DNA of 64,000 nt, taken from an uncultured Alphaproteobacteria bacterium. GTDB lineage: Bacteria; Pseudomonadota; Alphaproteobacteria; HIMB59; GCA-002718135. Both the position numbers and the translations under genes were made by a program. The stretch spans positions 1 to 64,000 of the forward strand of contig CACNND010000006.1 in NCBI GenBank assembly GCA_902621725.1, in the 5' to 3' direction. The first letter of the stretch is position 1, and every line of letters starts with the position of its first letter. The notes under the pieces are model-generated. The model did no database searches. It was not told where the DNA came from and saw only the letters and a list, made by a program, of their open reading frames with translations. Positions 52,458 to 63,461 of this stretch are shown here, one piece after another.

Positions 52458-53825
52458 ATGATTGAAAAATTTCAAAATTGGTTTCATGAAAACTCTATTA
52501 CTGAAGTTGAATGTTTAGTTCCAGATCTTGGAGGTATAGCAAGGGGAAAAATTTTACCAACTAATAAATTTTTAAAAGGACTTGAAGATGAAAGTCACAG
52601 ATTACCTCAGTCAACTTTTATTCAAACGATATCAGGAGATTATGCAACTGAGGACTCTGCTGGCGCTTTACCAAGAAGTGTTTACAATCCAACTGACATT
52701 GATGTAATTTTAAAACCAGATTTTGATACAATGAGAGTAGTGCCATGGTACGACGACCCTACTGCACAAATTATTTGTGATGCAATAAATCTTAATGGAG
52801 ATGATGTTATAAATTCTAGCAGGAATGCTCTAAAAAATATTCTTAAACTTTATAAAAAAGATAAATTAACTCCAATTGTCTCACCAGAGTTAGAATTTTA
52901 TTTAGTGAAACCTAATGCTGATTCAGATTATCCCCTTGAAGTGCCAGTAGGTCAATCAGGCAGACAAGAAACAGGTAAGCAAGCCTTGGGTATAGATGCT
53001 GTTAACGAATTTGATCATCTTTTTGAGGATGTATATAATTATTGTGAAGCACAAAATATTGAAATTGATACTATTAATCATGAATCTGGCTCAGCTCAGA
53101 TGGAAATTAATTTTCAGCATGGTGATCCTTTAGATTTAGCAGACCAGGTATTTTTATTTAAACGAACTCTAAGACAATCGGCTTTGAAACATAAACTTCA
53201 TGCTACATTTATGGCGAAACCTATGGAGAACCAACCTGGTAGTGCAATGCACATACATCAATCGATATATAACGAAAAAAATAAAAATATTTTTTTTAAT
53301 CAATCATCTAAAATTTCAAAAAAAATGAAAAGCTATTTAGGTGGGTTGGAAAAATATACTCCATTATTAATGCCAATATACGCTCCAAATATAAATTCGT
53401 TTAGAAGATTGTTTGCAACTTGGGGCGCTCCTAAAAATGTTAAATGGGGAATAGGTAATAGAAGTTGTGGTTTTAGAATTCCATCAATTGAGGAAAGGAA
53501 TATACGTATTGAAAATCGAATTCCTGGATCTGATACAAATCCATATCTAGTTTTTGCTGCTAATTTAGCGTCAGGATATTTAGGAATGAAAAATAATTTA
53601 AAACCAAATCCAGAAACCAAAGAAAGTGCATTTAAAGATAAAAATTCTAATCTGCCTAAAAATATGGATGAATCATTAACTCTTTTTGAAAATGATGAAG
53701 ATATAAAATCCATATTTAATGAAAAATTTGTAAGGTCGATTGCTGCGATAAGAAGAGTTGAGTATCAAGCCTATTTATCAGTAATAAGTTCTTGGGAGCG
53801 AGAATATTTATTACTTAATGTTTAA
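52458..53825 (+). CDS. puuA: Glutamine-synthetase-family gamma-glutamylpolyamine synthetase (PuuA-like)
   Basis: Ligates glutamate to putrescine or another amine with ATP. GS-type motifs are present: SPELEFYLV, ESGSAQMEINFQHGDPL, MENQPGSAMHIHQS, GNRSCGFRIPS and ENRIPGSDTNPY. The N-terminal WFHENSITEVECLVPDLGG and 455 aa fit the PuuA/GlnA3 group more than true glutamine synthetase. The neighbours (PuuB-like oxidase, putrescine transporter, agmatine enzymes) support putrescine as substrate. The 3' end overlaps potC by 11 nt. Confidence 0.87.
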   Translation: MIEKFQNWFHENSITEVECLVPDLGGIARGKILPTNKFLKGLEDESHRLPQSTFIQTISGDYATEDSAGALPRSVYNPTDIDVILKPDFDTMRVVPWYDDPTAQIICDAINLNGDDVINSSRNALKNILKLYKKDKLTPIVSPELEFYLVKPNADSDYPLEVPVGQSGRQETGKQALGIDAVNEFDHLFEDVYNYCEAQNIEIDTINHESGSAQMEINFQHGDPLDLADQVFLFKRTLRQSALKHKLHATFMAKPMENQPGSAMHIHQSIYNEKNKNIFFNQSSKISKKMKSYLGGLEKYTPLLMPIYAPNINSFRRLFATWGAPKNVKWGIGNRSCGFRIPSIEERNIRIENRIPGSDTNPYLVFAANLASGYLGMKNNLKPNPETKESAFKDKNSNLPKNMDESLTLFENDEDIKSIFNEKFVRSIAAIRRVEYQAYLSVISSWEREYLLLNV

Positions 53826-54609
53826 ATTTTTTATTAAAATAAAAATAAAATAAACCAATTATTATTAAAGCAAACATTAAAATTGCTGATAATGCGTTTA
53901 CTTCAGGACTCAGTCCTAATCTAACTTTAGAAAAAACTACAATTGGCAATGTGTTAGCTCCAGGCCCAGTAGTAAAACTAGCAACAACTAGATCATCTAA
54001 AGAAATTGTAAAAGCTAACAGCCAACCAGCAATAATAGAAGGTAAAATTATTGGTAAGGTTATCTTATAGAGTACCTTGGTATAATTATAGCCTAAATCC
54101 ATCGCAGCTTCCTCAATATTTTTGTTAAAGTCAGTTAATCTTGCTTGAATAATAATTGCGACAAATGCAATACAAAAAGTAACGTGCGATATAAAAATAG
54201 TTAATTGCCCTCTAGATGATGGAAATCCAATTACATTATTTAAGCTTATAAAAAAAAGTAACATTGAAAGACCTAAAATTAATTCTGGTAAAACCAAAGG
54301 TGTTGAAGAAAGAAAAATATAAAATGATTTAAAAGGAATTTTTCTTATTCTTACAAGTGAATATCCAATCATAACTCCTAAAATTGTAGCAAAAGTTGCA
54401 GACAAAGCTGCAATTTTCATACTAATAATAAATGCCTCAATTATTTGTTCATTATTAAATAATTCATTGTACCATCTTAAAGAAAATCCTTTCCAAACCA
54501 TTACTCTTTTATTTTCATTAAATGAGTAAAAAATTAAAACTAAAATAGGGAAATATAAAAAAAATAAACCTAAAAAAATAACTGTACTTTTGATTAAACT
54601 AGATTTCAT
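53815..54609 (-). CDS. potC: Putrescine/spermidine ABC permease, PotC/PotI type
   Basis: Second inner-membrane permease of a polyamine importer. Six helices are expected; the first starts at KSTVIFLGLFFLYFPILVLIFYSFN, and the EAA loop EEAAMDLGYNYTKVLYKITLPIILPSI is clear. The ATG at 54609 (about 264 aa) overlaps potB by 11 nt and starts just before the first helix; a longer frame reaches 54678 but lies inside potB. It is the last gene of the aguA-aguB-potF-potA-potB-potC run. Confidence 0.9.
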   Translation of the reverse strand: MKSSLIKSTVIFLGLFFLYFPILVLIFYSFNENKRVMVWKGFSLRWYNELFNNEQIIEAFIISMKIAALSATFATILGVMIGYSLVRIRKIPFKSFYIFLSSTPLVLPELILGLSMLLFFISLNNVIGFPSSRGQLTIFISHVTFCIAFVAIIIQARLTDFNKNIEEAAMDLGYNYTKVLYKITLPIILPSIIAGWLLAFTISLDDLVVASFTTGPGANTLPIVVFSKVRLGLSPEVNALSAILMFALIIIGLFYFYFNKKFKH

Positions 54610-55486
54610 TTTTTTGACTCCAGCGAGAATAAAGTATTTGAAAAATAACAATTGGTAAAACCAAAATAATAATTCCACTAAAAGCTAAAGCACTGGCACC
54701 TGGCCAGTTTCTATTAACAAAGAATTCCTCCCATAATATTTTTCCATAATACAATCTATCACTACCACCTAACATTTCAGGTATAATAAATTCTCCAACA
54801 ACAGGTATAAAAACTAATAAAGATCCAGCAACAATTCCTGGAACAGACAAAGGAAGAATAACTTTAAAAAAGGTTTTAATACGATTTAATCCTAAATCTT
54901 TTGATGCTTCAATTAAATTTAAGTCAAATTTATTTAAGTATCCATAAAGTGGTAAAATCATCAAAGGTAAATATGTGTATACAATTCCCATGATGACAGC
55001 ATATTGATTGTATAATAATTGAAGTGGTTCTGATGTTATGCCTAGGTTTAAAAGTATTACATTTAAAATTCCATTATTCTGTAAAATTATTTTCCATGCA
55101 TATACTCTTAATAAAAATGATGACCAAAATGGAATAACTACTAAAACTAATAGGATATTTCTTAATCTGATATTTGAAGTCGCAATATAAAAAGCTAATG
55201 GGAACCCAATAAGTAAACAAAAAAAAGTAGATATTAGAGCTAGTATCAAAGAGTTTACAAAAGATCCAATGTAGTAATAATCACTAAATATATAAACATA
55301 GTTTTCAAATGTAGTATTGATCTTAAATCCATTATCAAAAAGAAAAATATCTTGATAAGGAGGCATCCCCCATTCTGATACCGAAATTGATATTTTAAAA
55401 ATTATAGCTAATGGTATAAAAAAAAATAGAACAAGCCAAAAATAAGGGCTAAAAACAAAATATTTTTCAAATAATTTATTTTTCAA
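54599..55486 (-). CDS. potB: Putrescine/spermidine ABC permease, PotB/PotH type
   Basis: First inner-membrane permease of the importer. It has the first helix at FSPYFWLVLFFFIPLAIIFKISIS, the FWSSFLLRVYAWKIIL segment typical of PotB/PotH, and the EAA loop EASKDLGLNRIKTFFKVILPLSVPGIVAG. 295 aa. It begins directly at the end of potA without a gap and overlaps potC. Confidence 0.92.
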   Translation of the reverse strand: MKNKLFEKYFVFSPYFWLVLFFFIPLAIIFKISISVSEWGMPPYQDIFLFDNGFKINTTFENYVYIFSDYYYIGSFVNSLILALISTFFCLLIGFPLAFYIATSNIRLRNILLVLVVIPFWSSFLLRVYAWKIILQNNGILNVILLNLGITSEPLQLLYNQYAVIMGIVYTYLPLMILPLYGYLNKFDLNLIEASKDLGLNRIKTFFKVILPLSVPGIVAGSLLVFIPVVGEFIIPEMLGGSDRLYYGKILWEEFFVNRNWPGASALAFSGIIILVLPIVIFQILYSRWSQKNEI

Positions 55487-56554
55487 TTAATCCTCTAAAA
55501 CCTTGATTGATTCACTTTCCCAACTACAAATGACTTTCTCCCCTTTTGGGAAATTATAATTTGAGTTGGAGTTAAAATTCTGATCTAAAACTGAAATTAT
55601 CATATTTTTAATTTTAATTTCATAACGTGTAAAACTTCCCAAATATGATTTTTCTAAAATTTCTCCACTAAAGGAATTAAATGAACTTGTTTTCAAATTA
55701 TTCATTGATTGTATTTTTATTTTCTCTGGTCTTAGTAAAATATTAGTTTGTGTATTTTTTAATTCTTTGTTTAATTTAAAATTTATACCTAAATCATCAG
55801 AATAAAAATTTTCATCTTTCTTATAAATCTCAATTATATTTGCAATTCCTATAAAATTGGCAGTATAAAGACTTTTAGGATTTTCATAAATCTCTTCAGG
55901 GCTAGAGCATTCCAAAATAAGACCATTCTTCATTATTGCCATTCTATCAGATAAGGACATTGCTTCTTCCTGATCATGGGTAACAAAAACAAATGTAATT
56001 TTTAGTTTCTTTTGGAGTGTTGTTAACTCTAATTGCGTTTTTGATCTTAGTTTTTTATCTAGTGCTGCAAGAGGCTCATCTAATAATAATAACTTAGGTT
56101 TTTTTATTAAGCACCTTCCAAGGGCAACTCGTTGCTGCTCTCCTCCTGATAATTGCTTAATTCTTCTATTTAATAAATGTTCAATAGATAAAAGTTCGGC
56201 AATATTTCTTACGTTTATTTCAATTTCTTTTTGGGTAAAATTTTCTTTTATTCCAAAAGCTAAATTATTAAATACGTTTAAGTGAGGAAATAGAGCATAC
56301 GATTGAAACATATAATTTAATGGTCTTTCAAAAGGTTCAAGGTTTGTTATGTCCGTTCCGTCGAGTATTACACGTCCTGTATCTGGCTTCTCAAATCCAC
56401 CTAGTATTCTTAGTAAGGTAGTTTTGCCTGAACCCGATGATCCTAAGAGGCCAAAAAATTCAGATTTTGAAATATTTAAATTAATATTTTCTAAAACTTT
56501 GTTATCTCCAAATGATTTAGAAATATTTTCAATTACAAGAAAATTATTATCCAT
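55487..56554 (-). CDS. potA: Putrescine/spermidine ABC ATPase, PotA/PotG type
   Basis: ATP-binding subunit. Walker A GSSGSGKTT lies at about residues 37-45, signature LSGGEQQRVALGRCL and Walker B LLLLDEPLAALD follow, with a switch histidine in VTHDQEEAM. The C-terminal TOBE domain is present (ILLRPEKIKI). 355 aa. Only six bases separate its ATG from a 30-base hairpin in the intergenic region, and no ribosome-binding site is visible. Confidence 0.95.
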   Translation of the reverse strand: MDNNFLVIENISKSFGDNKVLENINLNISKSEFFGLLGSSGSGKTTLLRILGGFEKPDTGRVILDGTDITNLEPFERPLNYMFQSYALFPHLNVFNNLAFGIKENFTQKEIEINVRNIAELLSIEHLLNRRIKQLSGGEQQRVALGRCLIKKPKLLLLDEPLAALDKKLRSKTQLELTTLQKKLKITFVFVTHDQEEAMSLSDRMAIMKNGLILECSSPEEIYENPKSLYTANFIGIANIIEIYKKDENFYSDDLGINFKLNKELKNTQTNILLRPEKIKIQSMNNLKTSSFNSFSGEILEKSYLGSFTRYEIKIKNMIISVLDQNFNSNSNYNFPKGEKVICSWESESIKVLED

Positions 56555-56560
56555 CTTAAA

Positions 56561-56590
56561 TCAGCACTAATATTAATATATTAGTGCTGA
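56561..56590 (-). other. Long hairpin between potF and potA
   Basis: A perfect inverted repeat: TCAGCACTAATAT (56561-56573) pairs with its complement (56578-56590) around a 4-base loop, a 13-bp stem. It lies 15 nt after the potF stop and ends 6 nt before the potA ATG. The minus strand shows only three Ts after it, so it is a poor terminator. It could protect the potF 3' end, attenuate downstream transcription or occlude potA initiation; binding-protein genes are often set apart in this way. Confidence 0.8.
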
Positions 56591-56605
56591 AATGAAGTAT
56601 ATTTT

Positions 56606-57658
56606 TTAATTTGCTTTAAACTTATTAAAATATTTAGTTGATAATTTAGATTTTTTCGGAGAGTCTGCAGTATCAGCAAAAAGCATACTTAAAGTTGCTT
56701 CATCTGGATAAATAGCAGGATCTTCAAAAATTTCAGGATCAACTAGTTCATTGGCTGCTTTATTTGGATTTGAATACCAAACGTAATTTGTAATATCAGC
56801 AGCAACTTGAGGTCTTAAAATATAATTTATAAATTTGTGTGCATTCTCAACATTTTTTGCATCAGCTGGAATAGCCATCATATCAAACCATATTACAGTT
56901 CCTTCAGATGGAATTGAGTACCAAGCTTCTACTCCATCTGCAGCTTCATCTGCAGCTAGAAAAACATCACCTGACCAACCCATAGTTAAACAGATCTCTC
57001 CATTTGCTAAATCATCGATATATTGAGAAGAATCAAAATATCTTATGTAAGGTCGTATTTGCTGTAACATTTCAAGAGCAACCTCATAATCTTTCTCATC
57101 CTCTGTATAAGGATCTTTTCCAACGTATTTTAAAGCGATTTCCATAACCTCTGTAGGAGCATCCAACATTGCGATTCCACAATCTGCATATTTTGATGCA
57201 ATAGCTGGATCAAACAAAATGCTCCAACTTGTAATATCATTTTCATCAACTTTATCAGTATTATAGCCAATACCTGTAGTACCATACATATAATTTATCG
57301 AGTATTGACCTCCTGGATCATGTGCATCAATTTTTGCTAGTACATCGGGATCTAAATTACCAATGTTTGAAAGTTGAGCCTTATCAAGTTTTTGAAAAAC
57401 TCCAGCCTTGATTTGATTTTCTAAAAAAGAGCCTGAAGGCACCACAATATCATAACCTGAACCACCAGCTAAAAGTTTAGCTTCAAGAACCTCATTTGAA
57501 TCAAAAACGTCATAAGTTACATCAATGCCAAATTCATTTTCAAAATTTTCAATTGTATCTTCGGCAATATAGTCAGACCAATTGTAAATAAATAGTTCTT
57601 CTTTAGCCTGAGCTGAAAAAGAAATTAAAACTAATAGAGATATAAAATACTTAAGCAT
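56606..57658 (-). CDS. potF: Putrescine/spermidine-binding periplasmic protein, PotF/PotD type
   Basis: Extracellular solute-binding protein that delivers polyamine to PotABC. The signal peptide ends at FSAQA (cleavage near residue 18). The mature protein opens ELFIYNWSDYIAEDTIENFE, the hallmark of this family; LAGGSGYDIVVPSG and YMYGTTGIGYN follow. 350 aa. It carries the strongest ribosome-binding site seen in the window and is separated from potA by a stable hairpin, both suggesting higher synthesis than the other subunits. Confidence 0.94.
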   Translation of the reverse strand: MLKYFISLLVLISFSAQAKEELFIYNWSDYIAEDTIENFENEFGIDVTYDVFDSNEVLEAKLLAGGSGYDIVVPSGSFLENQIKAGVFQKLDKAQLSNIGNLDPDVLAKIDAHDPGGQYSINYMYGTTGIGYNTDKVDENDITSWSILFDPAIASKYADCGIAMLDAPTEVMEIALKYVGKDPYTEDEKDYEVALEMLQQIRPYIRYFDSSQYIDDLANGEICLTMGWSGDVFLAADEAADGVEAWYSIPSEGTVIWFDMMAIPADAKNVENAHKFINYILRPQVAADITNYVWYSNPNKAANELVDPEIFEDPAIYPDEATLSMLFADTADSPKKSKLSTKYFNKFKAN

Positions 57659-57670
57659 TATTCCCCTCCT
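57659..57670 (-). promoter_or_regulatory. Very strong Shine-Dalgarno of potF
   Basis: The minus strand reads AGGAGGGG (57670-57663) then AATA before the ATG. The AGGAGG core is 6 nt from the start codon, close to ideal. Most genes in the window have a weak or no Shine-Dalgarno match, so this one stands out and suggests heavy translation of the binding protein. Confidence 0.8.
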
Positions 57671-57698
57671 AAATAAAAATTACATTAAATAAAATAAA

Positions 57699-58556
57699 TT
57701 AAAAATCGAGAATTTTTTTATATAGATCAGGCCTTCTGTCTCTAAAGTTACCCCATAATTTTCTATATTCTCTTGAAATTAACAAATCTAAAGTCGCAGT
57801 TATTATTCCCTCATCCTTATCATTCATACGATTTATTACATTTCCAAGATGATCCAATATAAAAGAATTACCATAAAAATTTAATTCAATATCAGCTTCG
57901 ACCTCCTTCCCTATTCTATTCGAAGTTATTATAGGGATTTGATTTGCAGCAGCATGTCCTACCATTGTATTAATCCAATGATCCTTTGAATTTAATTCAG
58001 GCATGTGTGGCTCAGAGCCAATTGCTGATGGATAAAAAATTAAATCTGCACCTTTCAATGTTAATATTCTTGCACATTCAGGAAACCACTGATCCCAACA
58101 AATTGCACAACCAACTTTTGCTTGAGGAGTGTCAAAAACCATAAAACCTGTGTTGCCTTTTTCAAAATAATACTTCTCATTATATCCAGGTCCTTCTGGA
58201 ATGTGAGATTTATTATAAACTTCACTTATTTTACCGAAAGAATTAATCATAACTAGAGAGTTAAAAAACTTATTTTCCTTTTTTTGAAAAAAACTAATTG
58301 GTAATGAAATCTTTTTATCTTTACAAATATTAGATAATTTTTCGAACATTGGATTAGAAGGAAAATCAATTGCAAGATCAAAAAATTTATCATTTTTTGT
58401 TGAACAAAAATAATAATCTTGAAATAATTCTTGCAGAAGTAAAATATCAACATTTTCATTTGATGCTTTTTCAACTAAACTAATTGCTTTATTTACATTA
58501 GCGTCAAAGTCTCCTTTAATAGCCTTGAATTGTGATGTTGCTACTTTTACTTTCAT
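57699..58556 (-). CDS. aguB: N-carbamoylputrescine amidase
   Basis: Nitrilase-superfamily enzyme that converts N-carbamoylputrescine to putrescine, CO2 and ammonia. The Glu-Lys-Cys triad regions are visible: LLLQELFQDYYFC (Glu), NKSHIPEGPGYNEKYYF (Lys) and VGCAICWDQWFPE (Cys). The EGPGYNEKYYF segment is characteristic of AguB. About 285 aa from the ATG at 58556, which overlaps the aguA stop (ATGA); a longer frame reaches 58583. It feeds the potF-linked putrescine block downstream. Confidence 0.93.
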   Translation of the reverse strand: MKVKVATSQFKAIKGDFDANVNKAISLVEKASNENVDILLLQELFQDYYFCSTKNDKFFDLAIDFPSNPMFEKLSNICKDKKISLPISFFQKKENKFFNSLVMINSFGKISEVYNKSHIPEGPGYNEKYYFEKGNTGFMVFDTPQAKVGCAICWDQWFPECARILTLKGADLIFYPSAIGSEPHMPELNSKDHWINTMVGHAAANQIPIITSNRIGKEVEADIELNFYGNSFILDHLGNVINRMNDKDEGIITATLDLLISREYRKLWGNFRDRRPDLYKKILDF

Positions 58557-59536
58557 ATTTTTGGTACATTCATTGTTATACAATGAATATTTCCACCACC
58601 ATAATTTATATTTTCTGTTTCCAACATCATAATTTCTCTATTTGGGAATAACTTTTCAAAAGTTAATTTTACCTCATTATCTTCCTTAACATTGAATTTA
58701 GGTAAGATAATTTTATTTTTACTGAAATAGAAATTTATATATGAACTAATTATATTCTTATTATTAATCTTTTTTCTTGTAGGTAAAGGAACTTCAATTA
58801 AATCAAATGTCTGATTAGTATCTCTAAAAAATTTAATAAGATCAGCTTTGTTTTTTTCTAATATTTCATAATTAGGATCTAATTTGTGAGTTGTGGCAAT
58901 TAAATATTGATTTTTTCCTATCGGGCATAATAAATTATCGACATGACCATCTGTATCATCCTCCATTAGTCCATTTTCAAATAAAAAAATATAATTTAAG
59001 TTAAACAAGAGCTTTAATTCTTTAATAATATATTCACTATTATGTTTTTGTTTTCTATTTTTATTAAATATTACATTTTTAGTGCTAAATAAATTTTTTT
59101 TATCATCATAAGTTATTGCTCCTCCTTCAATAACTAAGTCAGAAATTTTTGTTGGGATATTTAAATAGTTTGAAATAAATTTTGATATTTTATTATCATT
59201 TAAATAATCTGGATACTTTCCATAACCATTAAACTCAAAGCTAATTGATTTTAATTTTTCATTTTCATTATAAAAAATTGGTGCAATATCTCGCATCCAA
59301 GAATCATCTAATTTACATTCTATAATATCTATATTTTTATGATCAGTTTTATTTTGAATTTCATTAATGTCTTCTTTATTTGACAAAACAATAACCTGCT
59401 CAGTTTTTGCTATTTCATTAATTACATTTGCAACTTCATCTCTAGCCTTATTAATAATTTTACCATAAAGATCTTTATTACATGGCCAAGCAATCAAACA
59501 ATATTGGTGTTCATGCCATTCAGGAATTAGTTTCAT
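58553..59536 (-). CDS. aguA: Agmatine deiminase
   Basis: Hydrolyses agmatine to N-carbamoylputrescine and ammonia (guanidine-modifying fold). It opens IPEWHEHQYCLIAWPCNKDLYG, has DDSWMRDIAPIF and VIEGGAITYDD, and the nucleophile C319 in YGGGNIHCITMNVP. 327 aa, slightly short. It is the first gene of the minus-strand agu-pot run and is divergent from the HD-domain gene with only 28 nt between start codons. Arginine decarboxylase, which would supply agmatine, is not in the window. Confidence 0.94.
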   Translation of the reverse strand: MKLIPEWHEHQYCLIAWPCNKDLYGKIINKARDEVANVINEIAKTEQVIVLSNKEDINEIQNKTDHKNIDIIECKLDDSWMRDIAPIFYNENEKLKSISFEFNGYGKYPDYLNDNKISKFISNYLNIPTKISDLVIEGGAITYDDKKNLFSTKNVIFNKNRKQKHNSEYIIKELKLLFNLNYIFLFENGLMEDDTDGHVDNLLCPIGKNQYLIATTHKLDPNYEILEKNKADLIKFFRDTNQTFDLIEVPLPTRKKINNKNIISSYINFYFSKNKIILPKFNVKEDNEVKLTFEKLFPNREIMMLETENINYGGGNIHCITMNVPKI

Positions 59537-59552
59537 AAAATTTAAAAATATG

Positions 59553-59558
59553 TATAAT
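59553..59558 (+). promoter_or_regulatory. Perfect TATAAT placing a leaderless start for the HD-domain gene
   Basis: TATAAT ends 6 nt before the ATG at 59565, so transcription starting at the usual +7 position would begin at that ATG and give a leaderless message. The -35 region is poor (TTTCAT near 59531). An upstream ATG at 59550 would overlap the -10 element, which argues against using it. Confidence 0.4.
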
Positions 59559-59564
59559 TATTTC

Positions 59565-60128
59565 ATGTCTAAAGATGAAGTAAAATTCACTGAAATGAAA
59601 CATGGTGATAAAGAGGATTATGAACTTCTTGCTAATTTTGAAGATAAATTCATTGAAGGTACAGCTGATAGAATAGTAAGAGTGCTAGAAAGTTTAGACA
59701 ATTCTTTAGGTGGCTATAAGGTATCTAGATTAGAACATTCTCTTCAAACTGCATCAAGGGCGTTACGTGAACAAGCTTCTGAAGAAATGGTGGTAGCTTC
59801 CTTATTGCATGATATAGGTGATGAAATTGCACCTCTTAATCATTCTGAACTTGCAGCCGCAGTATTAAAACCCTTTGTGTCTGAAAAAACAAGATGGATT
59901 GTAGAACAACACGGTTTGTTTCAAGCCTACTACTATAATCATTATTATGGAAAAGATAGAAATCTAAGAGATAAATTCAAAGGTCATGAATTCTTTAAAG
60001 ACACTATAGATTTTTGTGAAAGATGGGATCAAGCATCATTTGATCCAAATTATGATACAATTCCTTTAAAAGAATTTGTTCCAATGGTTCAAAGAATATT
60101 TAATAGAACACCTTATAGAAATTTATAA
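59565..60128 (+). CDS. HD-domain protein with complete di-metal ligand set, possible diiron oxygenase
   Basis: An HD-fold protein of 187 aa. The six ligand positions of PhnZ/MIOX-type diiron HD oxygenases are all filled: H58 (RLEHSLQ), H82-D83 (LLHDIGD), H93 (LNHSE), H116 (VEQHGLF) and D155 (ERWDQAS). LEHSLQ is also seen in PhnZ as I recall it. The gene adjoins carnitine-type catabolic genes, so an oxygenase or hydrolase acting on a quaternary or hydroxylated amine is possible. A phosphohydrolase function is the main alternative. The substrate is unknown. The ATG at 59565 is preferred over 59550. Confidence 0.75.
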   Translation: MSKDEVKFTEMKHGDKEDYELLANFEDKFIEGTADRIVRVLESLDNSLGGYKVSRLEHSLQTASRALREQASEEMVVASLLHDIGDEIAPLNHSELAAAVLKPFVSEKTRWIVEQHGLFQAYYYNHYYGKDRNLRDKFKGHEFFKDTIDFCERWDQASFDPNYDTIPLKEFVPMVQRIFNRTPYRNL

Positions 60129-60596
60129 TTATTTTTTTAGCTTATTGATTAGTGTAAGGTTACCTGGATCAAAATTATTTTTATTTTCTTGAATAAATTT
60201 ATCTATATCTTTTTGCTTTTCTAATTCTAATTCAGAAACTTTTCTAATATTTAAATCAACATACAAAGAACAAACCTCTGTTGTTGCTGCTCTGTAACCT
60301 TCAAGCTTATGAGTCATTTCTAATTTATAAATTAATCTTTTTTTATCCCTATCAAGAAATAATAAATTAATATCTACTTCATCACCCTCTTTCACTTCTT
60401 TGTCATAAGTTGTGTGTGACTCTACGGCAAAAGTAGTTTTCTTCTCTATTTTTGCAGAAGTTTCACCCATATTAAATTTTTGTAAAAGAACTTCCCATCC
60501 AGCATCAAAAAGATGAATATAAAATGCCAAATTCATATGACCATTGTAATCGGTCCATTCTTTTTTTACTCTTCCTGAATTTAAATATATCTTCAT
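60129..60596 (-). CDS. Hot-dog thioesterase, betainyl-CoA thioesterase-like (CdhC)
   Basis: 155-aa 4HBT/hot-dog-fold thioesterase. The active-site segment VKKEWTDYNGHMNLAFYIHLFD holds the family D-x-x-G-H-M-N pattern. It lies beside BKACE and carnitine dehydrogenase-like genes; in Pseudomonas the third carnitine gene encodes a betainyl-CoA thioesterase of this fold, and in other bacteria it is fused to the dehydrogenase. Here it is separate and on the opposite strand, 42 nt from the BKACE start. It ends flush against the HD-domain gene. Confidence 0.8.
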   Translation of the reverse strand: MKIYLNSGRVKKEWTDYNGHMNLAFYIHLFDAGWEVLLQKFNMGETSAKIEKKTTFAVESHTTYDKEVKEGDEVDINLLFLDRDKKRLIYKLEMTHKLEGYRAATTEVCSLYVDLNIRKVSELELEKQKDIDKFIQENKNNFDPGNLTLINKLKK

Positions 60597-60638: not shown

Positions 60639-61529
60639 ATGAATAATGAAGTAATAATTTCGTGTGCTGTAACAGGATCTGGTGATACAGCAGGTAAACA
60701 TCCTGAATTACCTATAACGCCAAAACAAATTGCTGATGCTTCAATTGAAGCTGCCAAAGCGGGTGCAGCAATAGCTCATGTACATGTAAGAGAACCTGAT
60801 GGCAAACCTTCTAGGAATTTAAGTTATTATAAAGAAGTGGCAGATAGAATTCGCTCCTCTGAAACTGATGTAGTTTTAAATTTTACTACAGGTATGGGTG
60901 GTGATTTTGAAGTTGGAACAGGTAAAGATCCTTTAAATCCCGTGGGAGCAAATACTGATATGATCGATGCATTAAGCAGATTAGAACATGTTGAAGAGTT
61001 ATTGCCTGAAATTTGTACTTTAGACTGCGGCTCACTAAATTTTGGTGACTCAAACATGACTTTTATTCATACACCGATACAACTAAGAACTGCAGCAAAA
61101 AAAATGCAGGAGCTTGGAGTGAAACCAGAAATGGAAGCTTTTGAAATGGGTCATTTATGGTTTGCTAATCAACTTTATAAAGAAGGTTTAATTGATGGCC
61201 CTCCTTTTTATCAAATATGCCTTGGTATACCTTGGGGATCACCTGCAACAACGAGCGCAATGAAAGCTATGGCTGAAATGGTACCTTCTGAAGGTGTTTG
61301 GTCTGGGTTTGGAATAGGAAGATCACAAATGCCTATGGCTGCACAGGCAGTTATTTTGGGAGGAAATGTTCGTGTGGGACTTGAAGACAATCTTTATTTA
61401 AAAAAAGGAGTTTTTGCATCAAATACACAGTTGGTTGAAAAGGCAAGATGTATTGTTGAAGATATGGGAGCTTCTATTTTATCCCCTCAGCAAACTAGAG
61501 AGAAATTAAAACTAAAAAAACATTTTTAA
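60639..61529 (+). CDS. BKACE-family beta-keto acid cleavage enzyme, probable dehydrocarnitine cleavage (CdhB)
   Basis: Zinc enzyme that cleaves a beta-keto acid with acetyl-CoA to give acetoacetate and a CoA ester. The N-terminal [22 protein letters not shown], metal histidines in [12 protein letters not shown], the [10 protein letters not shown] strand and [11 protein letters not shown] are typical of the DUF849/Kce family. 296 aa. Next to a carnitine dehydrogenase-like gene the natural substrate is 3-dehydrocarnitine, yielding betainyl-CoA. Lysine-fermentation Kce activity is the alternative by homology only. Confidence 0.9.
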
Positions 61530-61530
61530 T

Positions 61531-62451
61531 TTGAAAAATATTGCTGTCATTGGAACTGGTGTAATTGGTACCGGCTGGATACTTAGATTTCTCGCTAATG
61601 GTATAAGAGTTAAAGCATTTGATAAAAATTCTCAGCAATTACATTTTCTAAAAGAAGAAATAACAAGAACAAACTTAATTATAAAGAAATTATATAATAC
61701 AAAAATCAATTTCAGAAATTTGGAAATCGTGGACAATATTGAGGAAGCAGTGAAGAATGCAGATTTAATTCAGGAAAATGTACCTGAACGACTATCTTTA
61801 AAAAAAGATGTTATAAAAAATATAAGTAAATATTCTCCCTCAAATTCAATAATTGCTTCAAGTTCATCTGGCTTACTTCCATCAGATTTACAATCAAAAT
61901 GTATTAATCCAAAAAGGTTAATCATAGCTCATCCATTTAACCCTGTATATATTCTCCCTTTGGTTGAAATTGTAAAAGGTAAAAAAACTACAAATTTATA
62001 TCTTAATAAAGCAAAAAAATTTTATCAAAAAATTAAAATGAAAACATTATTGGTAGAAAAAGAATTGCCAGGCTTTTTATCTGATAGATTGCAAGAAGCT
62101 TTGTGGAGAGAGGGTTTACATATTATAAATGATGGATTTGCTTCAACAAAAGATTTAGATGAAGCGATTACTTATGGTCCTGGTATGAGATGGGCTCTAA
62201 TGGGAACTTTTCTTACATTTCATCTAGCTGGAGGGGAAATGGGTATGAAACACATGTTAGATCAATTTGGACCAGCATTGAAGCTTCCATGGACTAAACT
62301 TAAATCTCCAAAACTAACAAAAAAACTTAAAGAAAAAATCATTAAAGGCACAAAAAAACAATCAAATAATCATTCTATTAAAGATTTAAGTAACATAAGA
62401 GATAATTTTTTAATAGATTTGCTAGAATTAAAGAAAAAATATAAATTATAA
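61531..62451 (+). CDS. L-carnitine dehydrogenase-like 3-hydroxyacyl-CoA dehydrogenase family enzyme
   Basis: NAD-dependent oxidation of L-carnitine to 3-dehydrocarnitine is the likely reaction. The Rossmann motif IGTGVIGTGW lies at residues 7-16, and AHPFNPVYILPLVE is the family catalytic region. The C-terminal GTFLTFHLAGGEMGMKHMLD with LKLPWTKL is what I recognise from carnitine dehydrogenases rather than beta-oxidation enzymes. 306 aa, without the C-terminal thioesterase fusion some have. The start is TTG, 1 nt after the BKACE stop. Confidence 0.86.
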   Translation: MKNIAVIGTGVIGTGWILRFLANGIRVKAFDKNSQQLHFLKEEITRTNLIIKKLYNTKINFRNLEIVDNIEEAVKNADLIQENVPERLSLKKDVIKNISKYSPSNSIIASSSSGLLPSDLQSKCINPKRLIIAHPFNPVYILPLVEIVKGKKTTNLYLNKAKKFYQKIKMKTLLVEKELPGFLSDRLQEALWREGLHIINDGFASTKDLDEAITYGPGMRWALMGTFLTFHLAGGEMGMKHMLDQFGPALKLPWTKLKSPKLTKKLKEKIIKGTKKQSNNHSIKDLSNIRDNFLIDLLELKKKYKL

Positions 62452-62453
62452 TT

Positions 62454-63461
62454 ATGACAATAATCTCAAAATATGTAGCTTTAAAAAATTATATACCTAC
62501 TGGATTACCTAAGGAGGATGATTTTGAAATAAAATCTAAAACATTAGAATTAGATGAAACAAATAATATTCATGTTCTTAATTCGTGGATATCAGTTGAT
62601 CCCTATATGAGAGCAAGAATGACAGAACGTAAAAATTATAAACCACCCTTTTTATTAGGGGAGGAAATGGAAGGTTATGCAATTGGTTCAGTCCAAAAAT
62701 CAAAAGATTCACAATTTCAAGAAGGAGATATTGTTTTCAGTAATTTTGGCATGAGAGATAACTTTATTTGCAAAAGAAGTGATTTAAAAAAAATCAAAAA
62801 TTCTGATCTTCCATTGCAAACTTATCTAGGACCTTTAGGAATGACAGGACAGACTGCATATATCGGTCTTTTTAATCACGGAAAAATACAAAAGGGACAA
62901 AGTATTCTTGTATCTTCAGCAGGTGGAAGTGTTGGCTCAACAGTTTGTCAAATTGCAAAAAATTTAGGATGTAAAGTTTATGCTAGTACAGGATCAGATG
63001 AAAAAGTTGATTGGTTAAAAAATGAATTAAATGTTGATGTAGCATTTAATTATAAAAAAATTGATAACCTTGTTCTTCACTTAAAAGAAATTTGTCCTGA
63101 AGGATTTGACTTATACTTTGATAATGTTGGAGGTGATTTTTTAGAGTCTGCAATTTTTCGAATGAAAAATTTCGGAAGAATTATTATTTGTGGAAGAATA
63201 TCTCAAATGAATTCAACTTCTGCTCCTGCAGGGCTAAAAAATATGGCTCACGTATTAGTAAAAAGATTAACAATAAAAGGTTTTTTAATTTTTGATCATG
63301 AAAAAGATAATGAGCCTTTTGAAACTGATATGCGAAATTGGCTTTCAGAAGGAAAAATAAAATTTAAAGAAACAATTTATGAAAATATAGAAAATGCTCC
63401 AAAAGCATTTATAGATCTACTGAATGGTAAAAATTTAGGTAAGATGTTAGTTAAAATTTAA
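62454..63461 (+). CDS. Zinc-less MDR oxidoreductase (CurA / leukotriene B4 dehydrogenase type)
   Basis: NADPH-dependent medium-chain reductase that typically reduces alpha,beta-unsaturated carbonyls. It has WISVDPYMRARM, the nucleotide-binding ILVSSAGGSVGSTVCQIAKNLG (about residues 151-172), DLYFDNVGGDFLE and GRIIICGRISQMN. 335 aa. It starts 2 nt after the dehydrogenase and so probably belongs to the same transcript, but no step in known carnitine catabolism needs it. It ends flush with the convergent regulator gene. Confidence 0.88.
   Translation: MTIISKYVALKNYIPTGLPKEDDFEIKSKTLELDETNNIHVLNSWISVDPYMRARMTERKNYKPPFLLGEEMEGYAIGSVQKSKDSQFQEGDIVFSNFGMRDNFICKRSDLKKIKNSDLPLQTYLGPLGMTGQTAYIGLFNHGKIQKGQSILVSSAGGSVGSTVCQIAKNLGCKVYASTGSDEKVDWLKNELNVDVAFNYKKIDNLVLHLKEICPEGFDLYFDNVGGDFLESAIFRMKNFGRIIICGRISQMNSTSAPAGLKNMAHVLVKRLTIKGFLIFDHEKDNEPFETDMRNWLSEGKIKFKETIYENIENAPKAFIDLLNGKNLGKMLVKI

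Follow-up and report, generated by a model that had tools for sequence, protein, structure and literature searches.

A widespread HD-domain protein family of Alphaproteobacteria, proposed as a diiron-type oxygenase acting with a TmpA-like hydroxylase

To our knowledge, few HD-domain oxygenases have a known substrate. The closest described relatives of the gene treated here are PhnZ, the (R)-2-amino-1-hydroxyethylphosphonate oxygenase (PDB 4n6w, 4mln), the TmpA/TmpB pair (PDB 6npb, 6npa) and myo-inositol oxygenase (MIOX, PDB 2huo), a C-C-cleaving HD oxygenase with six ligands. According to passages of PMC8177086, HD diiron oxygenases share the ligand set H...HD...H...H...D; the known ones cut the bond next to a hydroxyl-bearing carbon at iron 1 and bind O2 at iron 2, and pairing of an Fe(II)/2-oxoglutarate (Fe/2OG) hydroxylase with an HD protein is the arrangement of PhnY/PhnZ and of TmpA/TmpB. 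The gene in question, hereafter HD, lies in a stretch of 64,000 nucleotides (the window: contig CACNND010000006.1, positions 1 to 64,000) from an uncultured alphaproteobacterium of the HIMB59 lineage. We propose, with moderate confidence, that its product belongs to a new family of HD diiron-type oxygenases and is the second enzyme of a pair in quaternary-amine catabolism, the first being a hydroxylase of a new TmpA/BBOX-like Fe/2OG clade that we name TmpA2.

The HD family is widespread (38/117 genomes of the SAR11 family, 67/240 alphaproteobacterial genomes), yet its records bear generic names; those seen were HD domain-containing protein, phosphohydrolase, inositol oxygenase family protein and hypothetical protein. 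Among the open-access papers listed, we found no title or abstract opening that assigns a function to the family or to the TmpA2/HD pair. The Fe/2OG partner makes the question of the HD substrate a concrete one.

The HD protein and its family

59550 to 60128, plus strand: HD-domain protein of 192 residues, candidate diiron oxygenase (ORF list, alignments, AlphaFold2 model)

The initial annotation had started this ORF at 59565. The ORF is real, but 59565 is its second in-frame ATG, giving 187 residues, and it starts at the first, 59550. It is not a chance ORF, because many genomes of the window's genus carry near-identical copies (98-100% identity) and full-length relatives (E < 1e-28) are found in the 67 of 240 genomes just mentioned; any match at 0.001 is found in 83 of the 240, 16 of these having weak matches only. 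Contig 11 of genome G403 has two equally scoring copies, each 98% identical to the query and inverted relative to the other, with 18 kb between them; an assembly repeat may be the cause.

All six ligand positions of PhnZ, TmpB and MIOX are present, as had been read from the sequence at the outset: H58, H82, D83, H93, H116 and D155 of the 187-residue version are H63, H87, D88, H98, H121 and D160 of the 192-residue protein. They are invariant in 28/28 sequences of a first alignment and in 81/81 family rows of a second, to which 12 canonical TmpB sequences were added; at the D160 position, one of these 12 has Glu. The LEHSLQ segment likewise aligns with LEHSLQ of PhnZ, so that the HD fold, the six ligands and the LEHSLQ/HDIG core are common to the two proteins.

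The similarity ends at the residues around the substrate. The PhnZ glutamate, suspected earlier to be lacking, is absent: at the position of the YxxE Glu, the 81 family rows have Tyr (52) or Phe (19) in 71 cases, Glu in 2 and other residues in 8, and the window protein has L53 and Y56 at the YxxE positions, whereas canonical TmpB has both Tyr and Glu in 12/12. This glutamate has a role in the substrate loop, as described in a section of PMC8177086. The Lys of AKRYL (12/12 TmpB) is Gln in 80/81 family rows and the HDxGH histidine (10/12 TmpB) is Asp in 79/81. For PhnZ His62 (HDxGH) and Lys108, we take their roles to be those generally ascribed to them. Elsewhere the family has conserved residues that TmpB does not share, namely W116 (77 of 81 rows), F124 (81), R140 (79), F164 (81) and D165 (80); in comparison with PhnZ, to which the HD protein is 23-26% identical, the family conserves D91, F124, Q125 and R140 instead of the YxxE glutamate.

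Curated models gave a similar picture. PF01966 (HD domain) was the sole Pfam family at 0.001, with 22.6 bits against 22, and NCBIfam matches span residues 41-94 at most. The protein misses the models for TmpB (NF049941, 41 bits, cut-off 300), Phn-HD (TIGR03276, 40 bits, cut-off 215) and hydroxymethylphosphonate dioxygenase (NF052439, 30 bits, cut-off 300). Its sequence match to the MIOX family PF05153 is weak (17.5 bits, gathering score 25), and the same model matches 24/73 family relatives at E 0.01.

An AlphaFold2 model based on 24 aligned sequences (pLDDT 91.5, pTM 0.86) gave ten Foldseek matches in the PDB at 0.001, all PhnZ or TmpB. In a VIA-align re-ranking confined to Foldseek's own matches, PhnZ was closest (Z 16.6), followed by TmpB (15.7), MIOX (10.8 and 10.0) and the next fold at 7.8 or below; no hydrolase in that list scored as high as PhnZ, TmpB or MIOX. 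A profile of 73 family members retrieved PhnZ and TmpB among PDB sequences at 7e-13 to 7e-12, all others staying at 0.5 or above. Clustering with phosphohydrolases, a possibility raised in the initial annotation, was thus seen in neither the fold nor the profile searches, where hydrolases gave weak scores only. On its ligands, predicted fold and profile, we place the window protein with the HD-domain oxygenases as a group, for which a mixed-valent Fe(II)/Fe(III) cofactor and bond cleavage that depends on O2 would be expected. Judged by its sequence, it is neither PhnZ nor TmpB: the YxxE Glu is lost and the curated cut-offs are missed by far.

In a quick tree of 93 rows, which leaves out MIOX, PhnZ and hydrolases, the window gene falls in a 21-row group with SAR11 (SH-aLRT 99), nested in a 35-row subclade (90) to which the tree's TmpA2-linked members belong. 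Canonical TmpB stands far outside the family on long branches, a join that the tree program flagged as unsafe.

The TmpA2 clade and its association with HD

The partner hydroxylase was identified from a TmpA/BBOX-like set of 51 sequences, including 43 of the 62 places found plus copies on other loci; without a cut sequence (L212a) and a short TauD (L177), 49 rows entered a maximum-likelihood tree. A single 12-row clade (95/84), itself part of a wider clade of 15 rows (100/99), takes in all eight TmpA/BBOX-like genes beside HD on the same strand (loci L117, L151, L190, L051, L052, L053, L092 and the Pseudomonas plasmid L173). TmpA2 members that are not beside HD come from the window's own genome (G000, contig 50), its sister G161, G030 and the SAR11 genome G207; the BBOX-like genes near HD in L146 and L192 lie outside the clade. 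As in the TmpA/TmpB and PhnY/PhnZ systems, HD is thus paired with an Fe/2OG hydroxylase in part of its loci; the resemblance to TmpA/TmpB includes the betaine context and a TmpA-like gene beside HD, overlapping it in SAR11.

TmpA2 is distinct from canonical TmpA, which groups apart. Seven TmpA2 copies score 314-348 bits with the TmpA model and 250-268 with the BBOX model, and a further copy (G048) reaches 357, so that the 12-row clade stays below the TmpA cut-off of 400; with the trimethyllysine dioxygenase model TIGR02410, the seven proteins score 168-197 bits (cut-off 268). Canonical TmpA was found over its cut-off at 15 places in the alphaproteobacterial sample, and in 12/12 fetched loci a TmpB-type HD gene adjoins it; in SAR11, 2/5 have such a gene beside them. 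SAR11 also holds TmpB-like proteins (139-160 bits, cut-off 300) in 18/117 genomes, many without a recognised TmpA, canonical TmpA being over the cut-off in 5/117.

The active site points to a particular type of substrate. In BBOX, according to part of PMC4736438, an aromatic cage holds the trimethylammonium group and two asparagines hold the carboxylate. In trimethyllysine hydroxylase (TMLH), Asp231 is the homologue of Asn191 and is thought to bind the alpha-ammonium of trimethyllysine, and both D231 and N334 matter for activity, as stated in portions of PMC7764450. The TmpA2 positions, those of the cage included, were read from an alignment anchored on the BBOX alignment. The cage positions carry aromatic residues in 14/15 rows of the wider clade, L200 having Ala and Met at two of them. 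The Asn191 position is Asp in 15/15 of these rows, unlike canonical TmpA, and in 1/34 others; that one (L221) passes the trimethyllysine dioxygenase cut-off. From these residues, one expects a TmpA2 substrate with trimethylammonium at one end and, perhaps, a further cationic group, which would set it apart from gamma-butyrobetaine and trimethylaminoethylphosphonate, and the loss of the TmpB signature in HD would fit a non-phosphonate substrate.

HD and TmpA2 also go together across SAR11 genomes. The p-values given here take no account of shared ancestry, and TmpA2-type in SAR11 means a score band of 323-352 bits, for which membership of the clade is shown by the tree for the fetched copies only. 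Among the 117 genomes of the SAR11 family, 38 have HD and 32 TmpA2-type; 32 have both and 79 neither (p 5e-23, uncorrected for ancestry). At genus level, 6 have both, 1 HD only, 0 TmpA2 only and 7 neither (p 0.002). The genes adjoin in 16 of the 32 pairs, lie 56-909 kb apart on one contig in 10 and are on different contigs in 6. BBOX-like genes (234-281 bits with the TmpA model) occur in 25 SAR11 genomes, 24 of them with HD, and carnitine dehydrogenase in 22, 19 of them with HD. In the sample of 240 genomes, wider-clade TmpA2 on the tree is present in 10, HD being found in 9.

The initial annotation had suggested looking for co-occurrence of HD with carnitine dehydrogenase, and this does appear in the 240 genomes: 33/67 genomes with HD have the dehydrogenase, against 16/173 others (33 both, 34 HD only, 16 dehydrogenase only, 157 neither; p 7e-11, uncorrected for ancestry and genome size). 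The two genes are at most 5 kb apart in G000, G161 and G120. HD co-occurs with canonical TmpA as well (10/15, p 0.001), so that part of these associations reflects shared lifestyle or genome size.

Gene neighbourhoods in the window and elsewhere

Around HD, the window holds the following genes.

57699 to 58583, minus strand: N-carbamoylputrescine-amidase-like, in the adjoining polyamine block (TIGR03381, 372 bits, cut-off 410)
58553 to 59536, minus strand: agmatine-deiminase-like, divergent from HD (PF04371, 279 bits; TIGR03380, 199 bits, cut-off 382)
60129 to 60596, minus strand: 4HBT thioesterase, betainyl-CoA thioesterase candidate (PF13279, 68 bits)
60639 to 61529, plus strand: BKACE-family enzyme, candidate 3-dehydrocarnitine cleavage enzyme, its substrate suggested by context only (PF05853, 321.6 bits)
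61531 to 62451, plus strand: carnitine-dehydrogenase-like, of the 3-hydroxyacyl-CoA dehydrogenase family (NF005471, 342 bits, below the cut-off of 414)
62454 to 63461, plus strand: medium-chain reductase related to curcumin reductase (NF058644, 308 bits, cut-off 440)

Family scans bear out the thioesterase-, BKACE- and carnitine-dehydrogenase-like genes that had been read beside HD; the thioesterase is similar to the C-terminal region of carnitine 3-dehydrogenase (NF005716, positions 345-480 with 59.6 bits; whole-model cut-off 592). HD starts 13 bp from the start of the agmatine-deiminase-like gene. Since that gene is divergent and the thioesterase gene convergent, HD and the carnitine genes do not form one operon. 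The polyamine block (52458 to 59536) contains agmatine-deiminase-, N-carbamoylputrescine-amidase-, polyamine-transporter-like (by eye) and glutamine-synthetase-family genes. A polyamine role for HD was set aside, as in L245 and L246, two loci of the window's family, GNAT- and MFS-like genes replace the block, including the divergent gene, and the thioesterase and BKACE stay.

Relatives of HD were sought in a named scan, which gave, as the best 80 loci among the matches listed, 11 from the window's group, 63 from SAR11, 5 from Chloroflexota and 1 from Rhodospirillales, grouped by record titles. Genes were called and clustered on 140 loci, those outside the family scans being named by eye; HD was called in 136 and missed in L127, L129, L132 and L146, the first two of which were read by hand.

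The thioesterase gene is the direct neighbour of HD in 12 loci, every one from the window's group, and in L245 and L246; in G163, a 4HBT-type thioesterase (by eye) is directly upstream on the same strand. In two genomes of the window's family (G410, G355), a stretch of some 15 kb holds a BBOX-like gene and genes for a ProVWX-type transporter, thioesterase and BKACE together with HD (by eye). The gene directly upstream of HD in SAR11 is purF-like in 57/63 loci; a gshA-like gene is directly downstream in 30/63, probably as part of a housekeeping run rather than as a glutathione link; TmpA2 is directly upstream in 4/63, and a BHMT-like gene at most three genes downstream in 6/63. The SAR11 locus L236 holds, in about 14 kb, a homocysteine-methyltransferase (BHMT-like) gene, HD, TmpA2, a transporter, an FAD/GcvT dehydrogenase, a HIBADH-like gene, an aldehyde dehydrogenase, thioesterase, BKACE, a ProV-type ATPase (over its cut-off) and a BBOX-like gene (330 of 415 bits). 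SAR11 Bhmt is a proposed glycine betaine demethylase, according to a section of PMC12478193. An island of BBOX, carnitine dehydrogenase, BKACE and thioesterase genes has been published for Arctic SAR11 (mBio 2025, PMC12421898), and genes of these kinds are found near HD in the window's family and in some SAR11; as far as the available part of that paper goes, its island section names no HD gene and its main text has neither 'HD domain' nor 'phosphohydrolase'.

Outside these groups, HD neighbourhoods vary. In 57 loci of the class, alcohol dehydrogenase was counted 4 times as an immediate same-strand neighbour, class II aldolase, short-chain dehydrogenase/reductase (SDR), Rieske and PhyH clusters 3 times each and TmpA/BBOX-like genes twice, among others; a third locus with TmpA2 beside HD (G048) was missed by the gene caller. 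No single partner dominates, and Fe/2OG oxygenases of different subfamilies recur. PhyH hydroxylases stand beside HD on the same strand in L134, L136 and L140 (by Pfam) and L127 (by cluster only), and a DIOX_N/2OG protein in L164; the same LysR cluster stands upstream in L136, which has PhyH, and in L151, which has the TmpA-like gene. HD also matches 15 plasmid records, in 14 of which the match covers 80% of the query or more. Eleven were inspected, and six had annotation near the HD gene. On the P. aeruginosa plasmid pF045_1 (L173), the run reads LysR (opposite strand), TmpA2 (TauD-family), HD, choline-binding protein, choline dehydrogenase and aldehyde dehydrogenase. The other five stretches have a sterol desaturase; a class II aldolase; nothing annotated adjacent; a GntR regulator; and porin-like and reductase genes.

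Linkage of HD to carnitine genes was seen in the window's family, some SAR11 and isolated cases. The carnitine block recognised initially does adjoin HD, but adjacency is found mainly in the window's family and HD is convergent with the thioesterase, so that we rejected this neighbourhood as sole evidence of function.

Some further neighbours recur. In L111, L149, L156 and L174 (a Sphingobium plasmid), HD is directly preceded on its own strand by a class II aldolase/adducin gene, which may be an alternative partner. A Rieske-type cluster (c83, by eye) is beside HD in L134, L141 and L125, L141 having two tandem HD copies. Near TmpA2, in L092, L236 and other SAR11 contigs, there is a 2-hydroxy-3-oxopropionate-reductase-like gene; such a reductase would fit glyoxylate disposal, and the L092 copy scores far below its cut-off (173 of 397 bits).

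Proposed reaction and alternative explanations

The quaternary ammonium role suggested for HD in the initial annotation is supported by the Fe/2OG partner and the betaine-type contexts; the adjoining carnitine genes alone would be insufficient. We consider the hydroxylase partner the more informative association and the stronger lead. An Fe/2OG hydroxylase, in SAR11 and the window's lineage a member of TmpA2, would hydroxylate an N-trimethylated substrate, and the HD enzyme, using O2, would cleave the C-C bond beside the new hydroxyl to give a carboxylate, the pair feeding quaternary-amine catabolism towards glycine betaine. Iron, O2 chemistry, the sequential action of TmpA2 and HD and the quaternary-amine substrate are all things that we infer.

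A specific version of this pathway, which we put forward tentatively and consider rather unlikely as a whole, starts from trimethyllysine. TmpA2 would make 3-hydroxy-N6-trimethyllysine; HD, acting at C3, would cut it at C2-C3 in an O2-dependent step, presumably giving gamma-butyrobetaine and the imine of glyoxylate, hence glyoxylate and ammonia; BBOX would turn gamma-butyrobetaine into carnitine, and carnitine dehydrogenase, BKACE and thioesterase such as those of the window would convert carnitine into glycine betaine. The classical route by aldolase and aldehyde is kept open by the betaine-aldehyde-type dehydrogenase near TmpA2 in SAR11 contigs (L092).

Several observations weigh against the pairing of HD with TmpA2 or against its proposed substrate. 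In SAR11, 6/38 genomes with HD have no TmpA2, and HD lies mostly within the housekeeping run behind the purF-like gene. In the window's family, the association is not significant: HD is present in 40/46 genomes with TmpA2-type (307-344 bits) and in 10/14 without it (p 0.17), a weak test, the genomes being incomplete and either gene near-universal there; six genomes of the window's own genus (G363, G368, G372, G397, G404, G409), three of them 90-92% complete, have TmpA2-type without HD, and G030 of the same order has TmpA2 but no HD. Only 9/67 class genomes with HD have wider-clade TmpA2 among the rows on the tree, and TmpA2 stands beside HD in 2/57 class loci, no more often than the SDR, Rieske, class II aldolase or alcohol dehydrogenase clusters, and in 1/6 annotated plasmid stretches. 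As to the substrate, the TmpA model gives TmpA2 far higher scores than the trimethyllysine dioxygenase model does. The second substrate Asn is Ser in 14/15 wider-clade rows and Asn in one (L190), if TMLH N334 is equivalent, as assumed, to BBOX Asn292; Ser is common here in BBOX-like rows too, so that only the Asp at the Asn191 position is telling. The own-genus TmpA2 (L186) lies among sugar-type genes (by eye), and the named BBOX-, carnitine-dehydrogenase- and BHMT-like genes score below curated cut-offs.

Some of these observations would be explained if HD were a diiron oxygenase for another kind of substrate, such as a hydroxy acid or polyol, which a few lineages recruited to betaine catabolism. 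This is possible, if rather doubtful: 58/67 class genomes with HD have, in the rows examined, no TmpA2 of the wider clade, the neighbours repeatedly include SDR, Rieske, class II aldolase and alcohol dehydrogenase genes, and the sugar-type surroundings of the own-genus TmpA2 would agree with it, whereas the recurrence of betaine-type neighbours in separate lineages, the strong association with TmpA2 in SAR11 and the position of the window's HD in the subclade with TmpA2-linked members do not. Neighbours would be incidental altogether if HD were a housekeeping metal-dependent phosphohydrolase of the HD superfamily. We regard this as very unlikely in spite of the sole Pfam family found, the purF-HD order of most SAR11 loci and the varied neighbourhoods in other alphaproteobacteria, given that fold and profile searches favour PhnZ, TmpB and MIOX over hydrolases, that the dinuclear ligand set is fully conserved and that HD co-occurs with an oxygenase in SAR11.

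The remaining explanation is that of a divergent TmpB: TmpA2 would hydroxylate trimethylaminoethylphosphonate or a near phosphonate and HD cleave the C-P bond, giving glycine betaine and phosphate. The logic of such a pair would be that of TmpA/TmpB as set out in part of PMC8177086, TmpA is the best model for the seven scanned copies of the 12-row clade, TmpB and Phn-HD are the best models for HD, and the neighbours handle betaines. In addition, three SAR11 genomes (G311, G330, G353) have HD and canonical TmpA without TmpA2, with TmpA about 5 kb from HD and no TmpB adjoining in two of them. However, Asn191 is replaced by Asp in TmpA2, HD lacks YxxE, HDxGH and the Lys of AKRYL, canonical TmpA adjoins a TmpB-type gene in all fetched alphaproteobacterial loci, and the three SAR11 genomes each carry a separate TmpB-like gene; a divergent TmpB therefore seems quite unlikely to us. 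HD as a direct partner of canonical TmpA in these three genomes was set aside, all having that separate gene.

If our proposal held in its trimethyllysine version, HD would catalyse a new C-C-cleaving reaction among HD enzymes and methylated lysine would enter the marine betaine pool; SAR11 and related ocean bacteria would have a pathway from trimethyllysine to glycine betaine that needs neither the aldolase nor the aldehyde dehydrogenase used in eukaryotes. More immediately, caution is called for in counting marine PhnZ-like HD genes as phosphonate catabolism, as the SAR11 HD family could contribute to phnZ estimates. Those given in a portion of PMC10574752 range from <1% to ~20% of cells, and the study with the high figure states, in the part available, that conserved residues were checked (PMC9381506).

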